Shown: positions 307 to 15,533 of the stretch, one piece after another
Numbering within the stretch: position 1 is the stretch's first letter
Layout: each line of letters begins with the position of its first letter
Assembly (NCBI GenBank): GCA_029858965.1
Contig: JAOUDZ010000028.1
Coordinates: 1 to 46,506 of the forward strand
Source: Cyclobacteriaceae bacterium
GTDB taxonomy: Bacteria; Bacteroidota; Bacteroidia; Cytophagales; Cyclobacteriaceae
Length of the DNA: 46,506 nucleotides
Direction of reading: 5' to 3'
Made by a program: the position numbers and the translations under genes
The notes under the pieces: generated by a model
Databases searched by the model: none
Told to the model about the DNA's origin: nothing
Seen by the model: the letters and a program-made list of their open reading frames with translations, nothing else

Positions 307-1506
307 TTATAATTTTAGCCGGATACCGATTTTGCTTAAACCTCCCGTAACGAATACGCACAGCATAGCAAAGAAAAAGGATTTGATTAGCCCGACACGA
401 CCGGCCAAAATTACTTCCGGCAAGTGAATGTGTAGCACGCGTGTTGTGGCATAGGCGAAATATGGAATTAAGTAACAGAGCAAAGTGTCTGTCCCCGCCG
501 GCTTTACGAGTGTGAACCAATTTGTTTTCTGCATTACATCTGCCAACCAATAAATACCGACAAAAGCAAGTATAGTGAACGCACTGCAGAGAAACAGCCA
601 TGCAGGCGTAGCACCAAGCTTAGCAAGCCCCCAGTAGGGTCGTGTAACCACGGAAAGTAGGATGAGGGCAGCGGAAAATAACACGAGTACGATGGTCAAC
701 GTCTTATTGTCTTGTCGGCTTCTGTAATGATTGAAAATGTACGTGGTCAACACACCCCCCATTGTAAGTCCTGTCAGTGTACCACCAAGAATGGCATCCG
801 GGATAAAATTGAATATCCTGGGGATAAGTCCGGCATGCGATACCATGCTCAACACGCTGAAAAAAGTCCACCCGCCAAGGATGGCGTAGAAATTGTTTTT
901 TGCGAAAATGGTAGTCAAGCCGCTTGCGAGATAGGCCCAGCCAATTAGCCCGAGAATACCCCACCATTGTGGTCTGAAGTACTCTATGTTTCCACTTTCG
1001 CCTCCACGGTAGATGTACGCCAGCACAAGTAGAACGGCGATCCCGACGAGCTTTGCAGCTCCCACCATGTACCTATTCGCAGTCTTGGGGTAATTGTTCC
1101 AGATTAAGATGAAGCACAGGCAGCAAAGTGGATTCCACAAGTATCTTTCCATCCCTGTAGCGTCGGCGTTGAATGTCTCTCCGTTTACCAGAAAGACACC
1201 CATTACCAGCAAGGCCAATGTTCTCAGTAGAACATGCTGCACAAGCTGCCAGTCGGTATCACCCCGCTTTCTTCGGGCATCAAGCGCAAATGGCATGGAC
1301 AGACCAACGATAAACAGAAAAGCAGGAAATACTACGTCGGACAGTCCGATGCCATCAACACCGAATTCGACATGTTCCATCCATTGCGGGACATCCTTCA
1401 GTGACCAAAGGTCATTCACGAAAATCATCAAAATCATTGTAAGCGCACGGAGTATGTCGATGGAAGCAATGCGCTGCGGTAGTTGCTGACTGGAAGGGGA
1501 TTTCAT
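307..1506 (-). CDS. Multipass membrane acetyltransferase, NagX/HGSNAT-like (DUF5009, COG4299)
   Basis: A 399-residue membrane protein with about ten hydrophobic segments. The N-terminal stretch RIASIDILRALTMILMIFVN, followed by WMEHVEFGVDGIGLSDVVFP and an FLFIVGLSMPFAL segment, is characteristic of the DUF5009 / heparan-alpha-glucosaminide N-acetyltransferase family. In lysosomes HGSNAT moves an acetyl group from cytosolic acetyl-CoA across the membrane to terminal glucosamine; bacterial NagX relatives sit in chitin/GlcNAc loci. By inference this one N-acetylates periplasmic glucosamine-containing sugars. It is the last gene of a leftward operon, 20 bp after the polysaccharide deacetylase, and that context fits an amino-sugar substrate. 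The substrate itself cannot be read from the sequence. Confidence 0.8.
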   Translation of the reverse strand: MKSPSSQQLPQRIASIDILRALTMILMIFVNDLWSLKDVPQWMEHVEFGVDGIGLSDVVFPAFLFIVGLSMPFALDARRKRGDTDWQLVQHVLLRTLALLVMGVFLVNGETFNADATGMERYLWNPLCCLCFILIWNNYPKTANRYMVGAAKLVGIAVLLVLAYIYRGGESGNIEYFRPQWWGILGLIGWAYLASGLTTIFAKNNFYAILGGWTFFSVLSMVSHAGLIPRIFNFIPDAILGGTLTGLTMGGVLTTYIFNHYRSRQDNKTLTIVLVLFSAALILLSVVTRPYWGLAKLGATPAWLFLCSAFTILAFVGIYWLADVMQKTNWFTLVKPAGTDTLLCYLIPYFAYATTRVLHIHLPEVILAGRVGLIKSFFFAMLCVFVTGGLSKIGIRLKL

Positions 1507-2920: not shown

Positions 2921-5263
2921 CTACTCTACCACTATTTCGTCAACGAGCATATTGGCTGGACGTCCGGCACCCGGATGCCATTCGGGTGTATTTCCAATAC
3001 TTTGCGCTTTTACTTTGATATAGCGCGCGCGTTTGGGTGCAAACTCAGCCACAAAATCACGCTGGTGACCACCATACTGATCAATTGGCAACGTATTGTC
3101 TATGCGCCCTACCAGCTCGAAGTGATCTTCATCTGCTGAAATGAAGTACTCCACTTTTTTTGGCAGCAACCGAAGCCAGAAGCCATATTGAAAATATGCA
3201 GATTCAATGCGTTTCACGGTTTTCATTTCTTCCAGGTCAATAACAACTTCCAAATCTTGTCCGGAGAATGCTAGCCAATTGTAGTCATAATCGTGACTTC
3301 CACGAATGCCATCTGTAAGCAGAAGGCCGGCGTTGGCAGGCAGATGCGTTGTGTCAGGACTGAGGAACTTAACCTTTTTGCCATAGGCTAGATGTTCGTT
3401 CATGCCTTGAGAAAAAAGGCGATACATCGCAGCACGATATTCTTCGGGGGAAGTACTCCATTCTTTTACCTGTGTTACACCTTCTCGGATGCACAAGTCC
3501 GTGAAGGGGTCAATCCGCGTCCGGATATCGGTTCGAATTTTCCATTGACCGTCAATTTTTTCGAATACCCCACGCGCACCGGTAAAGGATTTCTTTGCCT
3601 GTTCCATCGTCGCGTAAGCGAGCGGAAGACGCGCGATCCTGACGCGTTCAAGAACTGCCGGAGACGCAGAAACTGCTTTTTCTGCTTCATCGAATAACGA
3701 TTCATACCTTGCGATAAGCGCTGGTGTCAGATAACTGGAAGCGGCCTCGTTCGGCGATCCAAAGATACGCAGCGGTTGACCGGACGCCAGGAGTGCTTCA
3801 CGCATCATGTCTATGTACTGGCGGATAGGCTTAGCCGCCTCGCCATAATAACCTTGCAGAAAATCGTTCATCAGTTCTTCAACATTTGCGTTGGGGTCCC
3901 ACATGAGTTTTGAGATCAGGTAGGCGCGAAGCGCTGCGAATTCTCCACCGACTTCACGGTTGCCTTGTTCAAAAAGGGCATTTACGCCGTGCTGTGCAAA
4001 AAACTGAATATTTGGTTTTAACACGTGCAGGTTTGGAAAAGGGCTGACGAGGTGATTGAATTGGATCACATAATCCCAAACGATAATGTCTTTCGCGATT
4101 TTACCCCAATCCACAACATCGCGAACAAAATCCGCACTCGTGGGGTCTTCAGCTATGGGCTTGTCGCGGGGCGCTTCAATACTGCAAAGCATGATGTTTA
4201 CATTCTCAAGCGGACGTAATGTCTTTGGCGCCCGCCTGCCGTATTCATAGGCGAGCGTAGAAATGATTTTGTCTGGAAAGGCCTGCGCAATTTGATTGAC
4301 GAACTGGATAATAGCGCCTGACGGTGATCCTTCCCGTTCATCAATTTCACGACAGTTGCTACATGTGCAATAGTTCCGGTTGTCGTTCTGACTTACTGAC
4401 CAATAAAGTGCAGTTGGGTTTTGAGCGATTTTCCGACGCAGACTTTGGATAGTAATCTCCACAACCGCTGGATTCGTAAGACAAAGTTGTGTAGGGATAC
4501 GCTTGCCATTGACCTCAGAAAAATACTCCGGATGATCGCCATAGAATGTCTCAGGCGGAACAAGTTCATTGAACGTGTGAACCCACATGCCCCAGTCAGG
4601 TCGGTCTCCCTTTTCATTATGGTCTAGCTTATGCCATTCGGTGTACTCCGGGTCCCACGCAATGCGATAGTGCGTATCTCGAAATCCAATAACAGGTATC
4701 TGCACATTGTCGATCTTGCTCAGTTCGATCCGCGCTTGTTTTGGAATCACTTTGACTTTCGGACTGTACATCCTGCAGCCCAGATAGTCCTCCAGGAAAG
4801 TATATACGCCGTACAATGTTCCTTTCTCACTTCCCCCGGTAATGATCAGCCGCTGACTATCGGTCTTAATGAAAAAACCATCTTCTTTTAACGTATTAAG
4901 ATTAAAATTGAGCTTCAATTCATCCAGCCGTTCATTTTGCCCAAGCACAATTTCGTAATCGCTTTTTTGATTATCGGATTTGATAATCGGCAGGGCCGCG
5001 CCTGAGATTTCAAGTAGGTAATGCTGGAGCACTGCTGACGCTTTCAACTCAGATGCTGTTGCGGCGGTTGGGACAATGATGCGATATCGGCTAAGCGCAT
5101 TGTCAGCGAGCACAATATTTTGTGTGGCAGCATTAGCCTGTGGCTTCTTTTTGCTTTTTTTCTGGGCGGCAACTGGCAGGAACGCAAAAAGGAAACCAAC
5201 TATCAAGCATGTGGCAGTCCTCGCATACAGCTGGAACTTTGCTTTGTTCAACATTCTGAGCAT
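2921..5263 (-). CDS. Exported DUF4838 glycoside-hydrolase-like protein with C-terminal carbohydrate-binding-like domain
   Basis: 780 residues. A signal peptide (about 1-34, ending PVAAQ) is followed by a Lys-rich linker, an alpha-glucuronidase-like N-terminal domain (about 50-180) with the ITGGSEKGTLYGVYTFLEDY motif, and a TIM-barrel-like DUF4838 domain (about 190-500). The latter has the marks WGMWVHTFNELVPPETFY, HPEYFSEVNGKR, QLCLTNP and YWSVSQND followed by CTCSNC. The C-terminal ~130 residues resemble an F5/8 (discoidin-like) carbohydrate-binding domain. The family is linked to GH67-type alpha-glucuronidases by its N-terminal domain, but activities of DUF4838 proteins are largely undefined. 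First gene of the leftward operon with the deacetylase and acetyltransferase. It should work in the periplasm or on the cell surface on a glycan, possibly uronic-acid- or amino-sugar-containing. Confidence 0.85.
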   Translation of the reverse strand: MLRMLNKAKFQLYARTATCLIVGFLFAFLPVAAQKKSKKKPQANAATQNIVLADNALSRYRIIVPTAATASELKASAVLQHYLLEISGAALPIIKSDNQKSDYEIVLGQNERLDELKLNFNLNTLKEDGFFIKTDSQRLIITGGSEKGTLYGVYTFLEDYLGCRMYSPKVKVIPKQARIELSKIDNVQIPVIGFRDTHYRIAWDPEYTEWHKLDHNEKGDRPDWGMWVHTFNELVPPETFYGDHPEYFSEVNGKRIPTQLCLTNPAVVEITIQSLRRKIAQNPTALYWSVSQNDNRNYCTCSNCREIDEREGSPSGAIIQFVNQIAQAFPDKIISTLAYEYGRRAPKTLRPLENVNIMLCSIEAPRDKPIAEDPTSADFVRDVVDWGKIAKDIIVWDYVIQFNHLVSPFPNLHVLKPNIQFFAQHGVNALFEQGNREVGGEFAALRAYLISKLMWDPNANVEELMNDFLQGYYGEAAKPIRQYIDMMREALLASGQPLRIFGSPNEAASSYLTPALIARYESLFDEAEKAVSASPAVLERVRIARLPLAYATMEQAKKSFTGARGVFEKIDGQWKIRTDIRTRIDPFTDLCIREGVTQVKEWSTSPEEYRAAMYRLFSQGMNEHLAYGKKVKFLSPDTTHLPANAGLLLTDGIRGSHDYDYNWLAFSGQDLEVVIDLEEMKTVKRIESAYFQYGFWLRLLPKKVEYFISADEDHFELVGRIDNTLPIDQYGGHQRDFVAEFAPKRARYIKVKAQSIGNTPEWHPGAGRPANMLVDEIVVE

Positions 5264-5555
5264 GACGTAATATTTCTACCGAAGTTACTGATAAAACAGA
5301 TATCAATATGCCGAATTATTGCAGCGGTTTTTTGCATTGGATACGCTTTGGATCGAAATGCATGGATGATTCTCACTTAATGTGAAAAGCTGAGTCTTTA
5401 ATTGACTGTGGCCCGGCCCGGGTTTCCTACACCGGTGTGCGTGTGTGCACATTTTATGCATTGATATTTTGATAACTTTTCCATGAATGGGCATAATTCG
5501 TTTGAGTTTATGAATAGATTGAAATTATATTTGTTTACCCCTAAAATCAGCCACT
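5264..5555. other. Divergent intergenic promoter region
   Basis: This 292 bp gap lies between two divergent operons, the DUF4838 group (leftward) and the SelA-like group (rightward). It holds a GC-rich patch at about 5411-5425 and a 10 bp perfect palindrome ACACCGGTGT at 5429-5438 followed by a TG-repeat tract, and a good rightward promoter candidate at 5501-5533. No convincing gene is present. A shared regulator could bind the central palindrome, but that is inference. Confidence 0.6.
5501..5533 (+). promoter_or_regulatory. Bacteroidota-type promoter for the SelA-like operon
   Basis: TTTG at 5501-5504 and TATATTTG at 5526-5533, 21 bp apart, match the Bacteroidota sigma-ABfr consensus (-33 TTTG, spacer 19-21, -7 TAnnTTTG). 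A start point near 5540 would leave about 15 nt before the ATG at 5556, which is usual for this phylum. Confidence 0.55.
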
Positions 5556-6779
5556 ATGTTAAATCGAAGAGAACTTATTCAGCGTCTGTCTGCATTTCCG
5601 TTAGTAGGTGGTTTATTGGGCAGCGTTTCGTTCACATCTGCAATGGCTTCTCCGCCGACAAAAGAGGTTCCCAAGCGTGACTTGTTTAAAGAATTTGGTG
5701 TGCGCACCTTCATCAACGCTGCCGGGACTTTGACCTATATGACCGGGTCGCTTATGCATGATGAAGTTTTGGATGCGATCAACAACAGTGCGAAGGATTT
5801 CTGCCTGTTAGATGAGTTGCAGGACAAGGTAGGAGAGAAGATTGCCAAAATGGTGCATTCTGAAGCGGCTGTTGTTACATCTGGAGCGTTTTCGGGTATG
5901 ACGCTAGGCTTGGCTGGTATCCTTACTGGCATGGATGAGAAAAAGGTACGCGAACTCCCACACCTGGAGTACACCGGAATGAAATCTGAAGTCATTTGTC
6001 AGGTGAGTCATGACATTGCCTATAATCAGGCGCTTACAAATACTGGTTGCAGAATTGTTCGTGTTGAAACTGCAGAAGATGTGGCCAGGGCAATCAATGA
6101 AAGAACCGCACTGCTCCATTTTCTCCACATAGAGTCAGACAAAGGCAAAATCCAACATGAGGAGTGGGTAGCCCTTGGCAGGAAACATGGCATTCCAACG
6201 TCGATCGATATTGCTGCTGATGTGCCCCCGGTATCTAATCTTTGGAGATTCAACGATATGGGGTTCGACTTTGTGGTAATATCCGGGGGTAAGGCTATGC
6301 GAGGTCCGCAGAGCGCGGGGATACTCATGGGCAAGAAAGATATTATTGCGGCGGCCAGGTTGTCGATGCCACCGAGAGGGTCTACAATTGGTAGGGGAAT
6401 GAAGATTAACAAGGAAGAAATCCTGGGTATGTATGTGGCACTGGAAAGGTATTTGAATGAGGATCACGATAAGGAATGGAAAGATTGGGAAGACAGGCTT
6501 GCACACATTGAAAAGGCAGTCAACTCCGTGCAGGGAGTGACAACTGAAGTGCATGTACCCCCGCTGGGGAATCATACGCCCACGCTGCGAATATCCTGGG
6601 ATGATGCTAGCGTGAAACTGTCAGATAAGCAGTTGCGTGAGAATTTGCGCAGCGGCAGTCCTTCGATTGAATTAGGAGGTGGAGCCTCCAATAGTGTAAG
6701 CGTTACGGTGTTTATGCTCAAGCCTGGGCAGGAGAAGATTGTTGCTTCGCGGCTTAAAGAAGAATTGTCGCGCGCTTAG
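5556..6779 (+). CDS. Exported SelA/DgaE-like PLP-dependent enzyme, candidate ammonia-lyase
   Basis: 407 residues. The N-terminus has a twin Arg followed by a hydrophobic core (NRRELIQRLSAFPLVGGLLG), a Tat-like signal ending near residue 31. The rest is a fold-type I PLP enzyme of the SelA-like group: FINAAGTLTYMTG near 52-64, VVTSGAFSGM near 106-115, a candidate PLP-nitrogen Asp in SIDIAAD (D218), and the Schiff-base Lys in SGGKAMRGPQ (K246). Close family members are not selenocysteine synthases but lyases such as DgaE, the D-glucosaminate-6-phosphate ammonia-lyase. The Tat-like signal fits export of a folded cofactor-loaded protein. First gene of a four-gene rightward operon (gap 73 bp to the next); RidA and a deacetylase-type amidohydrolase in the same operon fit a role in removing ammonia from an amino acid or amino-sugar acid. 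Substrate is inferred. Confidence 0.82.
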   Translation: MLNRRELIQRLSAFPLVGGLLGSVSFTSAMASPPTKEVPKRDLFKEFGVRTFINAAGTLTYMTGSLMHDEVLDAINNSAKDFCLLDELQDKVGEKIAKMVHSEAAVVTSGAFSGMTLGLAGILTGMDEKKVRELPHLEYTGMKSEVICQVSHDIAYNQALTNTGCRIVRVETAEDVARAINERTALLHFLHIESDKGKIQHEEWVALGRKHGIPTSIDIAADVPPVSNLWRFNDMGFDFVVISGGKAMRGPQSAGILMGKKDIIAAARLSMPPRGSTIGRGMKINKEEILGMYVALERYLNEDHDKEWKDWEDRLAHIEKAVNSVQGVTTEVHVPPLGNHTPTLRISWDDASVKLSDKQLRENLRSGSPSIELGGGASNSVSVTVFMLKPGQEKIVASRLKEELSRA

Positions 6780-6852
6780 CGACGATGAAAGTGTTTAATA
6801 CAAGACAATTATCCTGGCAAGGATACGTAAGATATGCTTATTCCGACATGAC

Positions 6853-8604
6853 ATGGTAACATCAATTAGCAAGACCTGCTTCACAATTTTTCTATTTGTA
6901 TTGGTGATAGCACACCTCACTGGTTGTAGTAAAAAAAACGAATTGCCGGCCGGTGATCCTGACAATGGCGGCCTTTTTCTTCCCAATGATTTTGAAGCTG
7001 TCGTCGTTGTGGATAGTCTTACAGGACACGCCAGGCATCTTGCCGTCAATGACAATGGTGACATTTATGTAAAGTCAAGACTTTCTGAAAAAGATGGAAG
7101 AAATGTGGCCCTTCGCGATGTTGACAATGACGGTAAAGCAGATATCATTGAAACCTTCAGCCAATATGAAAAAGAGGGAAGCTACGGCACAGCTATGCGG
7201 ATTCATAATGGGTATTTGTACTTTAGTTCGGATTTGGTTGTTTACAGGCAGAAGTTAACCCCGGGAAAACTGATTCCGGAAAGTGAGTTAGAGGAGATCG
7301 TTGTTGACGACCATCCCCATGGTATGCATGAACACATCGGGAAGCCTATTTGCTTTGATAACAAAGGAAATCTGTATGTGCCTTTCGGTGCACCATCAAA
7401 TGCGTGTCAGGAACTTAACAGAACGCCGGCTAGCCCCGGAATGGACCCTTGCCCGCAGTTGGTAGACCATGGCGGTGTTTGGCGGTTTGATGCCAATAAA
7501 AATGGCCAAACTCAAAAAGATGGATACAAATTTTCGACGGGTATAAGGAGCGTTGTGGCGATGGAATGGAATCCGATGGATGAAAATGTATACCTTGTAA
7601 TGCACGGCAGAGACGATCTGCTGAGATTGTGGGCGTCTCGCTTTACACCCTGGCAGAGTGCAATGCTCCCTTCCGAAGAATTCTTAAAAGTCACGGAAGG
7701 ATCAGATTTTGGCTGGCCTTATTGCTATTATGATCAAATTCAGGAGGAGAACGTTCTGGCACCTGAATATGGTGGTGATGGAAATGAAATAGGACGGTGT
7801 GCAGAATTTCAAAAACCGGTAATGGGATTTCCCGGTCATTGGGCACCCAATGACTTGTTTTTCTATCAAGGGGATCAATTTCCAGCGCGATATAAAAATG
7901 GTGCATTTATTGCTTTTCATGGTTCTACAAATCGCGCGCCTTATCCTCAGTCGGGCTACTTTATTTGTTTTGTTCCATTTGAAAATGGAAAACCGACAGG
8001 AAAATGGGAAGTATTTGCTGATGGGTTCGCACAGGTAGATCCGATTGTAAATGTGAGCGACGCTGTGTACAGGCCCATGGGCATTGCGATGGGTCCGGAC
8101 GGATCACTCTATATTGCTGAGACTGAAAAGGGGAAGATATGGAGGATTATGTACAAAGGCGACAAGGGTACATTCGGCTCAGCGCAACTTGCAGCGATGG
8201 AAAAGAGAAAATTGCTGTCGCATTTGAGAACACCGGATAAAATAAATGACAATCTTGACAAGGATGTTGTCGCGGGTGGTGCAAAGATCTTTTCTGTTTA
8301 TTGTGCGACATGCCATCAGCAGGATGGCAAGGGTGCCTCAGGCAGGTTTCCCCCTTTGGCAGGAACCGATTGGGTAACGGGAGATAAGAAACGGTTGATT
8401 GGTATATTATTGAACGGACTGGAGGGTAATATCATGGTAAATGGTGAAGAATATATAAACGCGATGCCGCAGCACAGCTTCCTAAGCAACGAGGAAGCCG
8501 CCAACGTCCTTACTTACATAAGGCAAAATTTCGGCAACAAGGCCAGTGAAATTAGACCCGAAGAGGTGGCTGCAGCAAGAAGCATGGTGCACGCTAAAAA
8601 CTAA
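6853..8604 (+). CDS. Lipoprotein: glucose/sorbosone dehydrogenase-like beta-propeller fused to cytochrome c
   Basis: 583 residues. A lipoprotein signal ends in the lipobox LTGC (C25). Residues ~40-440 look like a six-bladed propeller of the L-sorbosone / soluble glucose dehydrogenase kind (PQQ-using in known members), with blocks such as HPHGMHEHIGKPICF, STGIRSVVAMEWNP and RPMGIAMGPDGSLYIAE. The C-terminal ~110 residues are a mono-heme cytochrome c: CATCH at 484-488 and an axial Met candidate in NAMPQ (M538). It should oxidise a sugar or sugar alcohol outside the inner membrane and pass electrons to its own heme. Lies 73 bp after the PLP enzyme and 48 bp before ridA. PQQ use is inferred from the family; no PQQ biosynthesis genes are in the window. 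Confidence 0.85.
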   Translation: MVTSISKTCFTIFLFVLVIAHLTGCSKKNELPAGDPDNGGLFLPNDFEAVVVVDSLTGHARHLAVNDNGDIYVKSRLSEKDGRNVALRDVDNDGKADIIETFSQYEKEGSYGTAMRIHNGYLYFSSDLVVYRQKLTPGKLIPESELEEIVVDDHPHGMHEHIGKPICFDNKGNLYVPFGAPSNACQELNRTPASPGMDPCPQLVDHGGVWRFDANKNGQTQKDGYKFSTGIRSVVAMEWNPMDENVYLVMHGRDDLLRLWASRFTPWQSAMLPSEEFLKVTEGSDFGWPYCYYDQIQEENVLAPEYGGDGNEIGRCAEFQKPVMGFPGHWAPNDLFFYQGDQFPARYKNGAFIAFHGSTNRAPYPQSGYFICFVPFENGKPTGKWEVFADGFAQVDPIVNVSDAVYRPMGIAMGPDGSLYIAETEKGKIWRIMYKGDKGTFGSAQLAAMEKRKLLSHLRTPDKINDNLDKDVVAGGAKIFSVYCATCHQQDGKGASGRFPPLAGTDWVTGDKKRLIGILLNGLEGNIMVNGEEYINAMPQHSFLSNEEAANVLTYIRQNFGNKASEIRPEEVAAARSMVHAKN

Positions 8605-8652
8605 TCTGGAAAATAACTTAATAAAAATTAACACATCTAAATATTACGTATT

Positions 8653-9114
8653 ATGAAAGAGCAAAGAAGATCAACATTGAAAAAATTATTCGCTTCCCTG
8701 GCCGGTGTCGTTGGACTTGGGGTCGCCACGAATGTAAAAGCTGAGGGCACGCTTCAAAAAGAAGTCTTTAATGTCGTTAAGGATGACCAGGATGTACCCT
8801 TGTTTTCGGGATCGACTAAGCTTGGAAATCTTGTTTTTATAGCCGGGAAAGGGGCGCATTTTGAAGGGGATATATCCTCCCACACAAAGCACGTACTGGA
8901 TGAACTTGAGAAGGAATTGATTAAAGCAGGATCATCTATGGATAAGGTTCTGAAGTGCAGTGTTTTCCTGCACGATCTGAATGACTATAAAGGGATGAAT
9001 GAGGCATACAAAGGTCGGTTCGGAAGTAAGCCTCCCGTACGTACAACTGTGGCTGTCTATGGTGGCGTTCCCGGAGATTCGCTGGTAGAAATTGACTGTA
9101 TTGCCTATATCTAA
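8653..9114 (+). CDS. Exported RidA/YjgF family enamine/imine deaminase
   Basis: 153 residues. Residues 1-30 form an export signal with a twin Arg (EQRRSTLKKLF, hydrophobic core, cut near VKA). The remainder is a RidA domain: an FIAGKGAHF block near 63-70 and the C-terminal VRTTVAVYGGVPGDSLVEID, containing the conserved substrate-binding Arg (R130) and Glu (E146) that match RidA Arg105 and Glu120. RidA speeds hydrolysis of reactive enamine/imine intermediates released by PLP enzymes. Cytosolic RidA has no signal peptide, so the leader is unusual; a PLP lyase with a similar leader two genes upstream is the obvious partner. Gaps are 48 bp upstream and 54 bp downstream. Confidence 0.88.
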   Translation: MKEQRRSTLKKLFASLAGVVGLGVATNVKAEGTLQKEVFNVVKDDQDVPLFSGSTKLGNLVFIAGKGAHFEGDISSHTKHVLDELEKELIKAGSSMDKVLKCSVFLHDLNDYKGMNEAYKGRFGSKPPVRTTVAVYGGVPGDSLVEIDCIAYI

Positions 9115-9168
9115 AAATGATATTCTCGAGAGAGCGACCTGTATTTTAAAATCCTAAAACCCTGAGTT

Positions 9169-10410
9169 ATGCATCAAAAAACATTTCTAATTATATTCTT
9201 TATGCTTTGTAGCCTTCTGCGCCCTGCCTGGGCACAAGACTACACCATCGTTATTAAAGGCGGACATCTCATCGATCCTAAAAATAATATCAATGAGGTT
9301 ATGGATGTCGCAATTCAGGATGATAAAATCGTCTTGGTTGCAAAGAACATTGACGCCAAACAGGCAAGGGTAATTGATGCAAAAGGTCTTTATGTAACGC
9401 CAGGATTTATCGACATCCATTCTCATAATTTTCATGGAACAAAGGAGGATCACTACCTGGGTGATGGGCTTGAAGCCCTTCCGCCGGATGGATTTACATT
9501 TCGCAGTGGTGTTACGACTGTTGTCGACGCGGGAGGAGCAGGATGGAAAACCTTTTCAACCTTCAAGGAACAAACCATTGACCATTCTAAAACAAGGGTG
9601 TTGTCATTTCTGAATATAGTTGGCGAAGGAATGCGCGGTGGTGCTTATGAACAAAACATGAGCGATATGGACGCGAAAATGACAGCCATGGTTGTAGGCC
9701 AGCATAAAGAAGAAATAGTGGGTATCAAAGTGGCTCACTATAGTGGGCCGGAATGGGATCCTGTTGATCGTGCAGTAGCGGCCGGAAAAATCGCAAATGT
9801 TCCGGTGATGGTGGACTTTGGCGGAACGACACCACCGCTTTCTATTCAAGACTTGTTTATGAAACACCTGCGGCCGGGTGACATCTTTACGCATACTTTC
9901 GCGCAACTGGAGTCAAGAATTGCAATTGTAGATGGTCAGGGTAAATTGCGGCCTTATGTGACAGAAGCGCAGAAGAGAGGTATTGTCTTCGATGTAGGTC
10001 ACGGCGGTGGAAGTTTTCGCTTTTCTCAAGCAATTCCCGCACTCAAGAGCGGGTTTATACCGAATACGATCAGCACAGACTATCATACGGGAAGTATGAA
10101 TGGTGGTATGAAGGATCAGTCGAATGTAATGTCCAAGTTCTTAAATATGGGCATGAGCATCCAGCAAGTTGCAGCTGCTTCCACCTGGATACCTGCTCAG
10201 GTTATTCACCGTGAAGATCTTGGACATTTATCGGCAGGTGCGGGTGCTGACGTGGCTATTTTTGGTATTCGGAAAGGGAAGTTTGGCTTTGTTGACTCCT
10301 CAGGTTTCAAGATGGATGGTGATCAGAAACTGGAATGCGAATTAACCATTCGCGATGGAAAAGTGGTATACGACTTGAATGGAATTTCAAGTCCATATTG
10401 GGATAAGTAA
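9169..10410 (+). CDS. Exported amidohydrolase/deacetylase-type metallohydrolase (COG3964-like)
   Basis: 413 residues with a signal peptide (about 1-22, ending PAWAQ). Amidohydrolase superfamily: small beta domain, then GFIDIHSH with metal ligands H84 and H86, GIKVAHYSG with the candidate carboxylated Lys K187, GDIFTHTFA with H242, and the distal Asp in ISTDYHTGS (D304). The block VPVMVDFGG has Asp (D216) where I recall a metal-binding His in the EF0837/Atu3266 group. Members of this group were long misannotated as dihydroorotases; characterised ones remove acetyl groups from N- or O-acetylated alpha-substituted carboxylates, and homologues often neighbour SelA-like genes. Last gene of the rightward operon. 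Deacetylation of a 2-acetamido acid is the favoured inference. Confidence 0.82.
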   Translation: MHQKTFLIIFFMLCSLLRPAWAQDYTIVIKGGHLIDPKNNINEVMDVAIQDDKIVLVAKNIDAKQARVIDAKGLYVTPGFIDIHSHNFHGTKEDHYLGDGLEALPPDGFTFRSGVTTVVDAGGAGWKTFSTFKEQTIDHSKTRVLSFLNIVGEGMRGGAYEQNMSDMDAKMTAMVVGQHKEEIVGIKVAHYSGPEWDPVDRAVAAGKIANVPVMVDFGGTTPPLSIQDLFMKHLRPGDIFTHTFAQLESRIAIVDGQGKLRPYVTEAQKRGIVFDVGHGGGSFRFSQAIPALKSGFIPNTISTDYHTGSMNGGMKDQSNVMSKFLNMGMSIQQVAAASTWIPAQVIHREDLGHLSAGAGADVAIFGIRKGKFGFVDSSGFKMDGDQKLECELTIRDGKVVYDLNGISSPYWDK

Positions 10411-10449: not shown

Positions 10450-12078
10450 TTACCAAAAAACCGTATACAACGCCGCTAAAATTCCTACAATTATCACAGC
10501 GCCTATGGTAAAGGCAGGCGTCACGATAAACATTTTCTTATCGATAATGATTTCGTGATGCTTGTCCTTTTCAGGAACCGCAATGCTCATGACAACCATA
10601 ACAAAGACGATGAACAGGAAGGTTATGGACATCCTATCGATGAAAGGATAGTCCGGAAATGTACCATTCGTAATACCCGGCAGAAATTTCAAAATTGTGG
10701 AAATCGGAATGGTAAGCAGTGCACCTGTTAGTGCAGCACTTGAAGTCGTCTTTTTCCAAAATAGCCCCATCAAGAAAATCGCCAGTACTCCAGGCGCAAT
10801 AAATCCGATGTATTCCTGGATAAACTGGTATGCCTGATCCAGGGTTTGCAACGCTGGTGCTACTAATCCGGCAATCACCATGGAAATTATAACAGCCCAT
10901 CTGCCTGTTCGTACGATACTGCGTTCACTGGCATTTTTATTAATAAATTTCTTGTACAGGTCCAGCGAGAAGATAGTTGATATACTATTGGCTTTGCCGG
11001 CCAGGGATGCGACAATTGCTGCCGTTAGTGCTGCAAACGCAACACCCTTTAAGCCAACGGGCAACAGGTTCATGAGGATAGGATAGGCATGATCAGGTTT
11101 CACTGTTCCATGGCTGTCCATCATTTCCTGCTGGAACATTCCCTCCTGATGCAATACAAACATGGCAATGCCGGGCAGCACGGCTATAACGGGTATAAGC
11201 AATTTCAGGAACGCGGCAAACAGAATTCCATTTCGTGCCGTCTTTAGGTCCGCGCCCAATGCGCGTTGTACGATATACTGGTTGCAACCCCAATAATTAA
11301 GTTGATTAATCCACATACCGCCTATCAATACTGACAAGCCGGGCAGATCTTTGTAATAGGGGTGATCGCTGGCAAAGATCATGTGAAAGTGGGAGTCCGC
11401 TTTGGCGCGAAGTATCGACAGACCTTTCAGTACATCACTTCCAAAACCAAAATTTTCTGATACCAGGCTCAGTGAGAGGTAGGCTGTTACAAGACCACCA
11501 ATCATGAGTACCAAGACCTGGATCACGTCTGTATACCCGATTACTTTCATTCCACCAAGTGTAACGATTACAGAAAATACGATCAGTCCGGTGACGCACC
11601 ACCCGAAGCTGATTGTTGAGATGGAAGTTATGGCTATCGCTCCGAGGTAAATAATAGAAGTAAGGTTGACAAAAACATACACCAGCAGCCAGAAAACAGT
11701 CATGGTAGTACTCACGCTATTGTTGTAGCGCGTGGCCAGAAACTGGGGCATGGTGTATATTTTGTTTCTAAGGTAAACCGGTATAAAAAAAATGGCAACG
11801 ACTATAAGTGTGGCGGCCGCCATCCATTCGTAAGTGGCAATCGCGAGTCCAAGTGCAAAGCCGGAGCCAGACATACCAATAAAATGCTCTGCGGAGATAT
11901 TGGATGCAATCAGCGATGCGCCGATTGCCCACCAGGTGAGGGAGCCTTCAGCCAGAAAGAAGGCCTTCGAGTCTGAAGAACTGCTTTTCTTTTTTTTATA
12001 GATGTAATAGCCATACCCGGAGACTATGATGAAGTACAAAAGGAATACTATATAATCTTCCGTGTAAAGTTTATTCAT
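10450..12078 (-). CDS. Sodium:solute symporter (SSS family, SGLT-like)
   Basis: 542 residues with about 14 membrane segments. The N-terminal third contains SLIASNISAEHFIGMSGSGF, the hallmark of the SGLT-type branch that includes vSGLT, followed by an EWMAA motif. The middle has GGMWINQLNYWGCNQYIVQR, also typical of sugar/polyol members. It should import a neutral sugar or polyol with Na+ across the inner membrane. Lies 82 bp after the myo-inositol oxygenase gene in the same direction, so inositol or a related polyol is the most economical substrate, although SSS specificity cannot be read from sequence. Converges with the amidohydrolase gene across a 39 bp gap with no clear terminator. Confidence 0.9.
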   Translation of the reverse strand: MNKLYTEDYIVFLLYFIIVSGYGYYIYKKKKSSSSDSKAFFLAEGSLTWWAIGASLIASNISAEHFIGMSGSGFALGLAIATYEWMAAATLIVVAIFFIPVYLRNKIYTMPQFLATRYNNSVSTTMTVFWLLVYVFVNLTSIIYLGAIAITSISTISFGWCVTGLIVFSVIVTLGGMKVIGYTDVIQVLVLMIGGLVTAYLSLSLVSENFGFGSDVLKGLSILRAKADSHFHMIFASDHPYYKDLPGLSVLIGGMWINQLNYWGCNQYIVQRALGADLKTARNGILFAAFLKLLIPVIAVLPGIAMFVLHQEGMFQQEMMDSHGTVKPDHAYPILMNLLPVGLKGVAFAALTAAIVASLAGKANSISTIFSLDLYKKFINKNASERSIVRTGRWAVIISMVIAGLVAPALQTLDQAYQFIQEYIGFIAPGVLAIFLMGLFWKKTTSSAALTGALLTIPISTILKFLPGITNGTFPDYPFIDRMSITFLFIVFVMVVMSIAVPEKDKHHEIIIDKKMFIVTPAFTIGAVIIVGILAALYTVFW

Positions 12079-12160: not shown

Positions 12161-13033
12161 TTAAAATTTTAGCGTAGGCGGAAGATATTTGGCAACAAGG
12201 TCCTCATAGTAAGGACGCAATGCTTTCCAGTCTGGCGGATTAGGGTTCTTGGAGTACAAATCATATGGATTAAATAGTTTAACCCATTTGAACATTTCAC
12301 GGTCATGATCATCTAACAAATGATCATATGCATTTTCCCTATGCTGGGCATAAAAGGAATGGTATCGCAACATATAAAGTCCGGATTCAGGCACATAGTC
12401 TTTTACCATGTGATATACATATTCATCATGTCCCCACGACATTTGAACATTTCTTAACCCGCAATTTTGCGAATAGACACCGTACTTTGTATTGTATGCA
12501 GGGTTCTCGCTGTCCGGGTTCTGCTTAAAAAATTCAGGATAAACGATTTTATCCGAATGGGCACAACCTACCGGGAACGTGTCACCAACAACAGCCCATT
12601 GAGGCTCACCGAATAAACAAAGCACTTTGCCCATGTCATGCAGGAGACCTACGAGAACCATCCAATCCGGATGACCATCTTTTCGGATGGCCTCTGCAGT
12701 CTGCAGCAAATGCTGCAGCTGGTCAAGGTCTGTATCGGGATCAGAATCATCCACAAGTTGATTCAGAAAATCATAGGCTTCCCAAATGGGCATTTCTTTT
12801 TTGTCGAATGCGAGAAACGTTGCCCGCTTGTTTAACACAAAATCATACGTTTGGTATGTATGATTCAGTCGGTAGAATTCGCGGACGGAATCGCGCTCAG
12901 GACTGTCATAATTCCTGAATGCTTCCGTAGATTTTCCCTCAGCAATTGAATCCGGATCAGGATATCTTCGCAACAAATCTTCTTCCCATTCGTCTAAGTC
13001 CTTAAAAACTATGGGCTCGAAAGTTTTCTTCAT
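12161..13033 (-). CDS. myo-Inositol oxygenase (MIOX)
   Basis: 290 residues, close in length and motif order to animal MIOX (about 285). The enzyme uses a di-iron centre and O2 to cleave myo-inositol to D-glucuronate. All six iron ligands of the human enzyme have counterparts: H108, H132 and D133 (LLHDMGK), H202 (SWGHDEY), H225 (RYHSFY) and D258 (NPYDLY). Substrate-side blocks [17 protein letters not shown] and the [20 protein letters not shown] region are also conserved. It has no signal peptide, so it acts in the cytoplasm. The SSS transporter lies directly downstream; the GMC/subunit 3 pair is upstream with a 99 bp gap. MIOX is best known from eukaryotes but occurs in Bacteroidota. Glucuronate-using genes are not in the window. 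Confidence 0.95.
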
Positions 13034-13132: not shown

Positions 13133-13789
13133 TTAAGCGTCAAATTTTACGCTAATCTCCAATGTGCGCGCATCGTATTTGACACCGTATTGTGCCAGCA
13201 CATCCGCGGGTACGCCATCCCATTGATTCGGTTTGTTGCCTGTATACCCAAGATCGGCAATGCCAATCTTACTCGTGAAGAAACCGCAGGCTGTCAGGTC
13301 GCGCATCATATTGAAAAAAGCAACGCCTTGCAGCATTTCAGGTTTGGCTTTTTCGGGGAAGGCAATTTCGTCAACAATCTCTATTTGCTGCTGGGCTGAA
13401 GTAGCGGCAAAATCAGCATTGTATCGCTTCATGCATTGAATGTCCAGCCATTTTAGTCCGCCACGCAGTGGCGTTTGATAATGGGGCATATCCTTAGCGA
13501 TAAACTCGATAAACGCCGGAACACCTGCATCGGTTGCGCTTCCGGAAGTTTCATCCTTTGGAATAATAATGTCAGCGAGCAAGGCTATCGTCTCCATTTC
13601 GTGCGTATCGAAGAACTTTTCACCTGCAAGCTTACGCTCGCGTTTCAATTCTTCAGGTGTACGATCAATAGCAAACGATTGAGGTGAATCGGCAATCCCC
13701 TTACCTTCTTCAGGACCGCACGCATGGAGCATCAAACCGGCGCCGACAGAACCTGCCGCAAGTGTTTTTAAGTATTTCCGTCTGTCCAT
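13133..13789 (-). CDS. Gluconate 2-dehydrogenase subunit 3-like protein, exported
   Basis: I place the start at the ATG at 13789 (MDRRKYLKTLAAGS), 4 bp after the upstream stop, rather than the in-frame TTG at 13822. This gives 218 residues beginning with a twin-Arg leader and a lipobox-like HACG. The family (PF13618) is the small subunit of membrane-bound gluconate 2-dehydrogenase and of GMC-type sugar dehydrogenases such as glucoside 3-dehydrogenase; its twin-Arg signal carries the FAD-bound large subunit across the membrane. Recognisable blocks are HEMETIALLADIIIPKDETSG and AGVPAFIEFIAKDMPHY. The tight spacing to the GMC gene supports a two-subunit enzyme. No multiheme cytochrome subunit lies next to it. 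Confidence 0.88.
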   Translation of the reverse strand: MDRRKYLKTLAAGSVGAGLMLHACGPEEGKGIADSPQSFAIDRTPEELKRERKLAGEKFFDTHEMETIALLADIIIPKDETSGSATDAGVPAFIEFIAKDMPHYQTPLRGGLKWLDIQCMKRYNADFAATSAQQQIEIVDEIAFPEKAKPEMLQGVAFFNMMRDLTACGFFTSKIGIADLGYTGNKPNQWDGVPADVLAQYGVKYDARTLEISVKFDA

Positions 13790-13793
13790 AATG

Positions 13794-15533
13794 CTAAATA
13801 TTTTGTTTCTTAAGTTGATCAATAATGTACTCTGAAGCCCTCATTGATAACGCAAGGATGGTCCAAGTAGGATTTTTATCTGCTTGTGATACGAAAGGTC
13901 CGCCATCAACCACAAAAAGATTTTTACATTCGTGCGCCTGGTTAAACTTATTTACAGCCGATTTATTTGGATCGTCACCCATGCGCGTGGTACCGACCTC
14001 GTGGATGATTCGTCCAGGGGCTGCGAGACCATAATTATTTTCTGGTCCATCTTTCCCGAAAGTTACGACTCCCCCCATTTTGAAGATAATTTCCTCAAAT
14101 GTCTGCTTCATGTGACGTGCCTGTTTCACCTCGTGATCGCTCCAATTATAGTGGAAACGTAAAACCGGGATTCCATATTTATCCACTGTATTTGGGTCGA
14201 TTTCGCAGTAGTTATCTTCCCGGGCTATAGCTTCACCTCTTCCCGACATGCCGAAAGTAGAGCCATAGAAATACCGGTAATCGTCCTTCAGCGATGCACC
14301 ATACCCGCCGGCATCTTTTTGGCTGCCATCCCTGCCAGGGTATTTTCCGTTAAGCCCCTGCATACCGAATCCAAAACCATAGGAAGGCATGCCCATACCG
14401 CCCCAGTATTCGATGTGATATCCGCGCGGAAAATCGAGGTTCTTATTGTCAAGCCACCAGGGTGAATAAACGTGCATACCCCCAACGCCGTCTTCGTTGT
14501 AGCGTTTGCGTCCGACAAGTTTAGGAAGGATTCCTCCCATGTCGGCTCCGGTAGAGTCGTGAAGATATTTTCCAACAATACCACTTGCATTGGCCAGTCC
14601 ATTTGGATGGCGGGATGATTTTGAATTCAATAACAAGCGTGATGATTCGCATGCGCTGGCAGCGAGAATGACAACCTTTGCATTTACGGTGTACTCCTGC
14701 ATGTCATCTTTGTTGACAAACGAAACGCCGGTAGCCATACCTTTGTCATCCGTCAGTACTTCACGCACCATCGCGTTTGGAATAATATCCACATTTCCTG
14801 TTTCGATGGCAGGTTTTACCAAAACGGAGGAAGAAGAGAAATCACCGTATACCGTACATCCTCTGTTGCACTGGGAGCAATAGAAACATTTACCACGTGA
14901 ATCATTAATTTTTTGGGTAAGAATAGAAAGTCTGGACGGAATCACGGGAACGCCTATTGACGTGGCTGCGTCTTGGATAAAGAGCTCATGAAGTCTTGGC
15001 TTCGGAGGAGGAAGAAATATTCCATCGGGTTCATTTAATATTCCCTCTTTTGAACCAAACACACCGATGAGTTTGTCAATCTTATCATAATAAGGTGCAA
15101 CATCATCGTACCCAATTGGCCAGTCGTCGCCTAATCCATCAATGCTTTTACGCTTGAAATCTTTGGGCCCAAAACGCAAGGAAATTCTTCCCCAGTGATT
15201 GGTACGTCCGCCTACCATACGTGACCGGAACCAATCGAATTTAGTGCCGTCTTTATGGGTATAGGGCTCGCCTTCCAGTTCCCATCCACCATAGGCTGCG
15301 TCAAAGTCTCCGAAGTTTCGGTAAGGTGTGCTGGCACCACGGCGAGGTGATTCCCATGGCCATTTTAATTGGGTAACATTTTTTGCAGGATCATACAGTG
15401 GGCCGGCTTCCAACAAAACTACTTTAATCCCCGCATTGGCGAGTACATAAGCAGCCATCCCACCTCCGGCACCAGATCCTACTACGCATACATCGTAAGC
15501 TTTCGATGTCTTCTTTATTTGAAAATCAGCCAT
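13794..15533 (-). CDS. GMC family FAD-dependent oxidoreductase, catalytic subunit (sugar/polyol dehydrogenase)
   Basis: 579 residues. N-terminal dinucleotide-binding motif VVGSGAGGGMAAYVLANAG, the GMC signature region GGRTNHWGR near 109-116, and the C-terminal active site with H511 (IIHEVGTTRMG) and N554 (KNPTWTI). A cluster C216, C219, C222, C226 (C-x2-C-x2-C-x3-C) recalls the iron-sulfur cluster reported in bacterial FAD-dependent glucose dehydrogenase; cluster type here is inferred. It has no signal peptide of its own, as expected if it is co-exported with the twin-Arg small subunit 4 bp downstream. Likely oxidises a sugar, glycoside or polyol in the periplasm. With MIOX and a symporter downstream an inositol-type substrate is possible; glycoside 3-oxidation is the other good option. 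Confidence 0.9.
   Translation of the reverse strand: MADFQIKKTSKAYDVCVVGSGAGGGMAAYVLANAGIKVVLLEAGPLYDPAKNVTQLKWPWESPRRGASTPYRNFGDFDAAYGGWELEGEPYTHKDGTKFDWFRSRMVGGRTNHWGRISLRFGPKDFKRKSIDGLGDDWPIGYDDVAPYYDKIDKLIGVFGSKEGILNEPDGIFLPPPKPRLHELFIQDAATSIGVPVIPSRLSILTQKINDSRGKCFYCSQCNRGCTVYGDFSSSSVLVKPAIETGNVDIIPNAMVREVLTDDKGMATGVSFVNKDDMQEYTVNAKVVILAASACESSRLLLNSKSSRHPNGLANASGIVGKYLHDSTGADMGGILPKLVGRKRYNEDGVGGMHVYSPWWLDNKNLDFPRGYHIEYWGGMGMPSYGFGFGMQGLNGKYPGRDGSQKDAGGYGASLKDDYRYFYGSTFGMSGRGEAIAREDNYCEIDPNTVDKYGIPVLRFHYNWSDHEVKQARHMKQTFEEIIFKMGGVVTFGKDGPENNYGLAAPGRIIHEVGTTRMGDDPNKSAVNKFNQAHECKNLFVVDGGPFVSQADKNPTWTILALSMRASEYIIDQLKKQNI

Follow-up and report, generated by a model that had tools for sequence, protein, structure and literature searches.

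Amino sugars are major sources of carbon and nitrogen in soil and water. The D-glucosaminate pathway of Salmonella (DgaE, DgaF) is cytosolic and operates on phosphorylated compounds. A cytosolic parallel has been predicted in chitin-degrading haloarchaea, where, in the accessible part of the paper, chitinase clusters contain a DgaE homologue together with a glucose dehydrogenase, a RutC-family protein and a CE14 deacetylase (PMC12343721). The same part of the paper names RutC a repressor (PMC12343721); NCBIfam describes RutC as a pyrimidine-utilization protein. Here we analyze four adjacent genes on a stretch of 46,506 nucleotides from a Cyclobacteriaceae bacterium (Bacteroidota; GenBank assembly GCA_029858965.1, contig JAOUDZ010000028.1, positions 1 to 46,506 of the forward strand), which we refer to in its full length as the window. 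Together they rather likely encode the central part of an oxidative route by which amino sugars are broken down in the periplasm. In the literature that we searched, which was chiefly open-access, we found no description of a periplasmic version of such a route. We view the set as the glucosaminate route in a new, exported form, more than as an independent invention. What we observe is the gene set itself, its conserved linkage and leaders, the folds, the conserved catalytic residues of the pyridoxal phosphate (PLP) and Rid proteins, and the downstream genes that are present in some relatives.

The four open reading frames (ORFs) occupy one strand and are separated by intergenic spacers of 73, 48 and 54 bases in the ORF list of the window.

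5556–6779, plus strand: predicted exported DgaE/SelA-like PLP lyase, 407 residues; twin-arginine codons 4–5 (5565–5570), PLP-binding Lys246 in SGGK (6291–6293)
6853–8604, plus strand: predicted lipoprotein with an AA12/GSDH-type propeller and a C-terminal cytochrome c domain, 583 residues; Cys25 (6925–6927), CATCH (8302–8316)
8653–9114, plus strand: Rid protein with a putative twin-arginine translocation (Tat) leader, 153 residues; twin-arginine codons 5–6 (8665–8670), Arg130 (9040–9042)
9169–10410, plus strand: predicted exported amidohydrolase of the PRK09237/COG3964 type, 413 residues; HxH 84/86, Lys187, Asp216 replacing His, His242, Asp304

Every reaction of the route, the order of the steps and the sugar are what we infer from these genes. 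The lipoprotein dehydrogenase would oxidize an amino aldose, probably an N-acetylhexosamine, at C1. A leader-bearing lactonase, found in only part of the relatives, would open the lactone, and the amidohydrolase would take off the N-acetyl group. The Tat-exported DgaE-like enzyme may then remove water and subsequently ammonia from the 2-amino-3-hydroxy acid, while the Tat-exported RidA would accelerate hydrolysis of the enamine/imine. The expected product is a 2-keto-3-deoxy-hexonate. One possible fate is cleavage outside by an exported aldolase of the RraA type; the other is import and processing by a 2-keto-3-deoxygluconate or 2-keto-3-deoxygalactonate (KDG/KDGal) kinase and a 2-keto-3-deoxy-6-phosphogluconate (KDPG) aldolase.

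Protein Families and Catalytic Residues

The structure model of the PLP enzyme has a predicted local distance difference test score (pLDDT) of 91.1. The closest solved folds are those of glucosaminate-6-phosphate ammonia-lyase (DgaE, 7lc0) and of Cap15 (8t7j), with target-normalized template modeling (TM) scores of 0.87 and 0.89. Profile comparison gives 189.6 bits for the DgaE structure and 159.5 bits for Cap15. The enzyme thus has the fold and the PLP-binding lysine of the DgaE family, and the SGGK motif is kept in all 135 homologues inspected. The substrate of DgaE is, by its name, a 2-amino-3-hydroxy acid, and we assume the same for Cap15.

Two variants of this protein were noted in passing. 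A second exported form of about 540 residues stands beside two amidohydrolase paralogues (L046, 4822–6444; also L070, L074 and L157). In the three members scanned, its C-terminal extension of about 130 residues has no Pfam match, and the fusion of PLP and Rid domains that had been suspected in these paralogues was not found by Pfam. The window's own genome also contains, at C149, a Tat-PLP paralogue (L044) without the usual partners. It stands opposite a DHDPS-family gene and genes for a leaderless Rid protein, a ceramidase-like protein and a class III aminotransferase.

The dehydrogenase passes the Pfam cut-off for GSDH (39.6 bits, cut-off 25) and carries an additional cytochrome c domain; its score against the Pfam family TrAA12 is below cut-off (20.6 bits, cut-off 30.9). 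The best matches to its structure model (pLDDT 83.7) in the PDB are AA12 and pyranose dehydrogenases (target TM 0.74–0.75). It has the propeller fold of sugar dehydrogenases that use pyrroloquinoline quinone (PQQ; GSDH/AA12), with AA12 structures ranking first. A profile alignment with TrAA12 reveals a common FHGSTxR motif, with one histidine and one arginine aligned, which we take to bind PQQ. The motifs CxxCH and HGST are present in 64 of 64 homologues. The lipoprotein dehydrogenase is probably a quinoprotein. Elsewhere in the same genome (C188; L168, 12742–14943), a 733-residue propeller protein with a cytochrome c motif, assigned to its family by eye, is encoded about 4.6 kb from the genome's sole 2-keto-3-deoxygalactonokinase gene.

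The third protein belongs to the Pfam family Ribonuc_L-PSP (69.7 bits, cut-off 27.3). It scores below the cut-off of the TIGR00004 subfamily (62.8 bits, cut-off 106.25) and matches the NCBIfam model of RutC weakly (48.5 of 169.1 bits). Arg130 and Glu146 are retained in 71 of 71 homologues, and Arg130 presumably sits at the place of the catalytic-type arginine of RidA. The fourth protein exceeds the equivalog cut-off for the PRK09237 amidohydrolase/deacetylase (452.6 bits, cut-off 371). Lys187, His242 and Asp304 occur in all 109 amidohydrolases compared, and HxH occurs in 108 of them, with one gap.

Export Leaders

Direct reading of the sequences finds a leader on each of the four proteins. The leaders of the PLP enzyme (MLNRRELIQRLSAFPLVGG) and of RidA (MKEQRRSTLKKLFASLAG) contain twin arginines. 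The dehydrogenase has an LTGC lipobox at Cys25, and the Sec-type leader of the amidohydrolase ends in AWA-Q. An earlier note, made from the window sequence, had described four genes of the families given above and export signals on all four. The ORF list and family profile scans bear out the genes, and the leaders, as read by eye, agree with the predicted export.

Our evidence for Tat export consists of leader conservation and a crude Tat-like rule, with 642 unassigned neighboring ORFs as the control. Arg4 and Arg5 are invariant among 31 aligned PLP homologues; the next invariant column is Gly48. All 117 PLP homologues and 70 of 71 RidA homologues have twin arginines among their first 60 residues; these homologues were collected by similarity to the window proteins and may in some cases count the same gene twice. 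The crude rule is matched by 117/117 PLP and 68/69 RidA sequences and by 41/642 control ORFs. The window's own genome contains TatC. With this leader the PLP enzyme is predicted to depart from the DgaE family, whose members are cytosolic and leaderless. The earlier note had named a cytoplasmic location as fatal to its proposal; the twin arginines kept in every PLP homologue examined point to export instead.

The lipobox is not universal, as a simple pattern detects it in 37 of 64 dehydrogenase homologues. A lax leader rule classifies as export-like 61/63 dehydrogenases, 100/106 amidohydrolases, 15/15 RraA proteins, 13/15 SGL proteins and 16/16 PF10282 lactonases. This rule is weak evidence by itself because it also matches 308 of the 642 control ORFs.

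Conservation and Linkage

We searched 59 related genomes with thresholds of E < 1e-100 for the PLP enzyme, E ≤ 1e-20 for Tat-RidA, and E ≤ 1e-60 for the amidohydrolase and the dehydrogenase. The first three proteins co-occur in the identical 17 genomes, and none of them is found in the other 42 at these thresholds. The chance of such agreement is 1/C(59,17) = 3.6e-15, uncorrected for kinship. Looser values, up to E = 1e-3, add a weaker PLP-fold match in five further genomes. The dehydrogenase is present in 23 of the 59, including all 17, and some of these matches (e.g., G017, G029) cover the propeller part only.

The genes are also physically linked. Within 10 kb of a PLP homologue lie 15 of 17 RidA copies, 31 of 33 amidohydrolase copies and 18 of 22 full-length dehydrogenase copies, and 30 of the 35 PLP homologues in these relatives have a partner within this distance. 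We rejected chance adjacency as an explanation, since by a rough estimate the stretches within 10 kb of PLP homologues make up about 0.7% of a genome.

A scan of named genomes returned at least 78 loci. Among the matches listed, 51 have full flanks, and these are the base for all locus counts given here. Within 10 kb of the PLP gene, 43 loci contain an amidohydrolase, 35 a Rid protein and 34 a dehydrogenase; all three partners are present at 27 loci and at least two at 42. The conserved neighborhood on which the earlier note had made its proposal depend is therefore strongly in evidence. The order of the genes varies from locus to locus, a pattern better explained by a functional tie than by common ancestry alone.

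In a thin sample of the phylum (296 genomes, the window's own included), the PLP enzyme was found in 7 genomes, again counting the own one, at E up to 1e-90. Seven of eight stretches from the 6 other genomes contain partner genes; in the eighth (L162), which lies at a contig end, the PLP gene alone is visible. Three of these genomes, all from one family, belong to another class of the phylum. A locus from this class (L160) brings together the dehydrogenase, SGL, Rid, amidohydrolase, RraA, an SBF carrier, CBM9 and the PLP enzyme.

Accessory Genes and the Fate of the Proposed Product

The most frequent additional families at the 51 loci are CBM9 (27 loci), SusC (26), a second GSDH (18), SusD (17) and an SBF carrier (16). 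Small cytochromes c and SGL proteins follow with 15 loci each, six of the SGL matches being weak (53–64 bits), then a second YjgF-type Rid protein (14), PF10282 lactonase (13), RraA (12) and NagX (4). At least one lactonase-family gene is present at 21 loci.

Two loci, L138 and L151, share the gene order SusC, SusD, PLP enzyme, amidohydrolase, 2-keto-3-deoxygalactonokinase (DGOK), KDPG aldolase and a carrier of the major facilitator superfamily (MFS). Families were scanned in L151, and the genes of L138 are their close relatives. The DGOK scores 175.6 bits against PF05035. The aldolase scores 139.3 bits against PF01081 and 173.5 bits against TIGR01182, above the cut-off of 156. The carrier is closest to the galactonate transporter model TIGR00893 (255.5 of 395 bits, below cut-off). 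The kinases and aldolases of both loci do not match the lax export-leader rule. This absence of leaders puts the predicted boundary between exported and cytosolic steps at the point where a 2-keto-3-deoxy acid would need a carrier. A DGOK fragment also follows the PLP-amidohydrolase pair in L154, and a PIG-L-family protein is encoded in the operons of L106 (scanned) and L127 (by similarity). The window's own genome has one DGOK and, at C42, three KDPG-aldolase-family genes that stand, by eye, beside an apparent KDG kinase and a similar carrier.

These genes lend independent support to the 2-keto-3-deoxy acid that the earlier note had proposed as the product: DGOK, KDPG aldolase and a galactonate-type carrier in L138 and L151, and leader-bearing lactonases and RraA elsewhere.

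Weighing the Proposed Route

Several observations count against the proposed route. The PLP enzyme stays below the cut-offs of the DgaE profile TIGR01437 (181.8 bits, cut-off 385.3) and of NF047797 (146.8 bits, cut-off 600). PqqC exceeded its cut-off in 0 of 59 genomes and likewise in 0 of 14 controls, a search with no positive control. Partners are missing around 5 of the 35 PLP homologues in the relatives and at 8 of the 51 listed loci; all eight belong to Dyadobacter and Larkinella, and for several of these organisms the list includes a further locus that does have partners. Only 18 of 42 dehydrogenase-like matches (E up to 1e-60) are near a PLP homologue: the 22 full-length ones were computed, and the other 20, compared by eye, are all distant from one. 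The lax leader rule is matched by just 26/40 CBM9 and 13/19 second Rid proteins. DGOK and KDPG aldolase occur together in two complete loci, closely related by their look, and a third locus has a DGOK fragment. A GH20 gene is near the PLP gene at just 5 of 51 listed loci, three of them from Spirosoma, and in the 59 relatives a comparison by eye gave no GH20 match close to any PLP homologue. GH20 is thus a weak pointer to N-acetylglucosamine (GlcNAc). Finally, at the strand-5 position of the metal site, 101 of 109 amidohydrolases have Asp and the other 8 have Glu.

This last point bears on deacetylation, which is the weakest step in the scheme of the earlier note. The four best solved relatives aligned (2ogj, 2ics, 8wzy, 8je0) all have a histidine at the strand-5 site, which we take to be a metal ligand. 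The assignment to a COG3964-type family stands, as its cut-off is passed; the label of deacetylase is unproved, because an acidic residue replaces this histidine in 109/109 sequences. Either the site works with an acidic ligand, or the enzyme catalyzes another reaction such as lactone or ester hydrolysis. It is somewhat unlikely, though well worth considering, that the enzyme serves the same pathway as a lactonase or esterase, with deacetylation carried out elsewhere (e.g., by a PIG-L-type enzyme) or unneeded if the substrate were free glucosamine. The altered metal site and the PIG-L-family genes in L106 and L127 would fit this assignment, as does the haloarchaeal proposal, which in the accessible part of the paper puts deacetylation first (PMC12343721). 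Against it stand the clear score for the deacetylase family (452.6 against 371 bits) and the dedicated lactonase families already present at 21 of 51 listed loci. Such a role is compatible with an oxidative amino-sugar route, and both can hold together.

Two other explanations would replace the route itself. The set might degrade a different exported β-hydroxy-α-amino acid, for example from peptides or N-acyl amino acids, with the dehydrogenase serving a separate sugar oxidation. DgaE-like, Rid and COG3964-type folds should suit any such acid; of the 42 genomes in which our thresholds detect none of the other three proteins, 6 still have a member of the dehydrogenase family, and the dehydrogenase is within 10 kb at just 34 of 51 listed PLP loci. 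We regard this explanation as unlikely, given that lactonases, full-length dehydrogenase copies and CBM9 (27/51 listed loci) travel with the set, and that two relatives add 2-keto-3-deoxygalactonate kinase and KDPG aldolase. Highly improbable, in our judgment, is an oxygen-using enzyme like Cap15, which we take to convert an amino acid to an amide instead of releasing ammonia. The title of the Cap15 structure (8t7j) calls it oxygen- and PLP-dependent, its fold is as close as that of DgaE (TM 0.89 against 0.87), and the hosts of the set are presumably aerobes. However, the profile score favors the DgaE structure (189.6 against 159.5 bits), and the linked Rid protein, plus the KDPG aldolase linked in some relatives, suits a keto acid rather than an amide.

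For the oxidative amino-sugar route, the nature of the substrate is supported by the DgaE fold, the Rid linkage, the keto-deoxy kinase and aldolase, and the deacetylase family, as well as by the PIG-L-family genes in two operons and the haloarchaeal chitinase clusters, as far as the accessible part of that paper describes them (PMC12343721). GlcNAc is a candidate that we hold tentatively and with some doubt as the main substrate, since GH20 genes are not consistently found close by and the name of the kinase family refers to the galacto series. The pathway of the earlier note has thus gained in its main line (the 2-keto-3-deoxy product, the linkage and the leaders), while its choice of GlcNAc and its step order are still conjecture. 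As to the fullest version, we are nearly evenly divided and lean slightly against it: a complete periplasmic pathway from N-acetylhexosamine to 2-keto-3-deoxy-hexonate, and with RraA in some relatives to pyruvate and glyceraldehyde, would combine folded PLP and Rid enzymes moved by Tat with an amidohydrolase of acidic metal site in at least two classes of the phylum.

If the route exists, amino sugars would be broken down before uptake, with electrons passing straight to the respiratory chain and without sugar phosphorylation, and ammonia and acetate would be released outside the inner membrane. It would also involve an unusual pair of exported PLP and Rid enzymes and would assign functions to exported proteins that have generic family names only. 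The wider set (CBM9, lactonases, RraA, SBF carrier, SusCD) emerges from comparison and is invisible in one window. Within one large bacterial group, many members from soil and water carry the set.

Other Features of the Window

Three further features flank the set.

5501–5533, plus strand: putative promoter, read in the sequence; TTTG at 5501, 21 nucleotides, then TATATTTG at 5526–5533
10450–12078, minus strand: sodium:solute symporter adjoining the set, from the family scan; its link to the set is unproved
307–1506, minus strand: NagX/HGSNAT-like membrane protein 4 kb upstream of the set, from the family scan

The promoter is a candidate only. Upstream of the PLP gene, TTTG and TATATTTG match the Bacteroidota promoter form TTTG/TAnnTTTG. 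In L047 and L050, a relative of the NagX/HGSNAT-like gene lies directly beside the amidohydrolase gene and shares its strand. A myo-inositol oxygenase gene (12161–13033) stands with the symporter gene on the minus strand beside the set, and the same two genes are found beside the set in another genus of the family (L057, 13868–16497). Farther along the minus strand (13133–15533), we noted by eye an apparent GMC oxidoreductase and a small subunit with a twin-arginine leader, a kind that we associate with periplasmic 3-keto-glycoside pathways. Upstream of the set, the minus strand encodes a DUF4838 protein with a GH67-type N-terminal domain (2921–5263) and a polysaccharide deacetylase with a leader (1527–2840).

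Comparison with Known Systems

Periplasmic aldose oxidation by soluble glucose dehydrogenases (sGDH/Asd) and AA12 pyranose dehydrogenase offers the same propeller fold and the aligned His, Arg and HGST positions. In contrast to these enzymes, the window dehydrogenase has a fused cytochrome c and is linked to an amino-acid lyase. The amidohydrolases of the set resemble the solved COG3964/PRK09237 members (2ogj, 2ics, 8wzy, 8je0) in passing the family cut-off and in HxH, Lys, the strand-6 His and Asp, and they differ in the strand-5 Asp/Glu (109/109) and the export leader. NagX, a proposed glucosamine acetylating protein, has a counterpart in the NagX/HGSNAT-like gene near the set in the window and in some relatives. 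This gene lies outside the four-gene set, and the part of the source at hand proposes that NagX supplies the usual NagA route (PMC9007349). We consider NagX neutral as evidence, because it is proposed to acetylate, while our route would need deacetylation.

The predicted GlcNAc route of Natrarchaeobius likewise clusters a DgaE homologue, a glucose dehydrogenase, a RutC-family protein and a de-N-acetylase. As described in the accessible part of the paper, the sugar is imported, a kinase takes part, and the dehydrogenase and deacetylase come from different families, whereas the window set carries export leaders (PMC12343721). With the Salmonella D-glucosaminate pathway, the set shares the DgaE-family PLP fold, the PLP-binding lysine and the expected keto-deoxy product, and in some relatives a KDPG-type aldolase adjoins it. 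It differs from that pathway in its twin-arginine leader, in implying no phosphorylated substrate, in scoring below the DgaE cut-offs, and in joining the PLP gene to a dehydrogenase, a Rid protein and an amidohydrolase.

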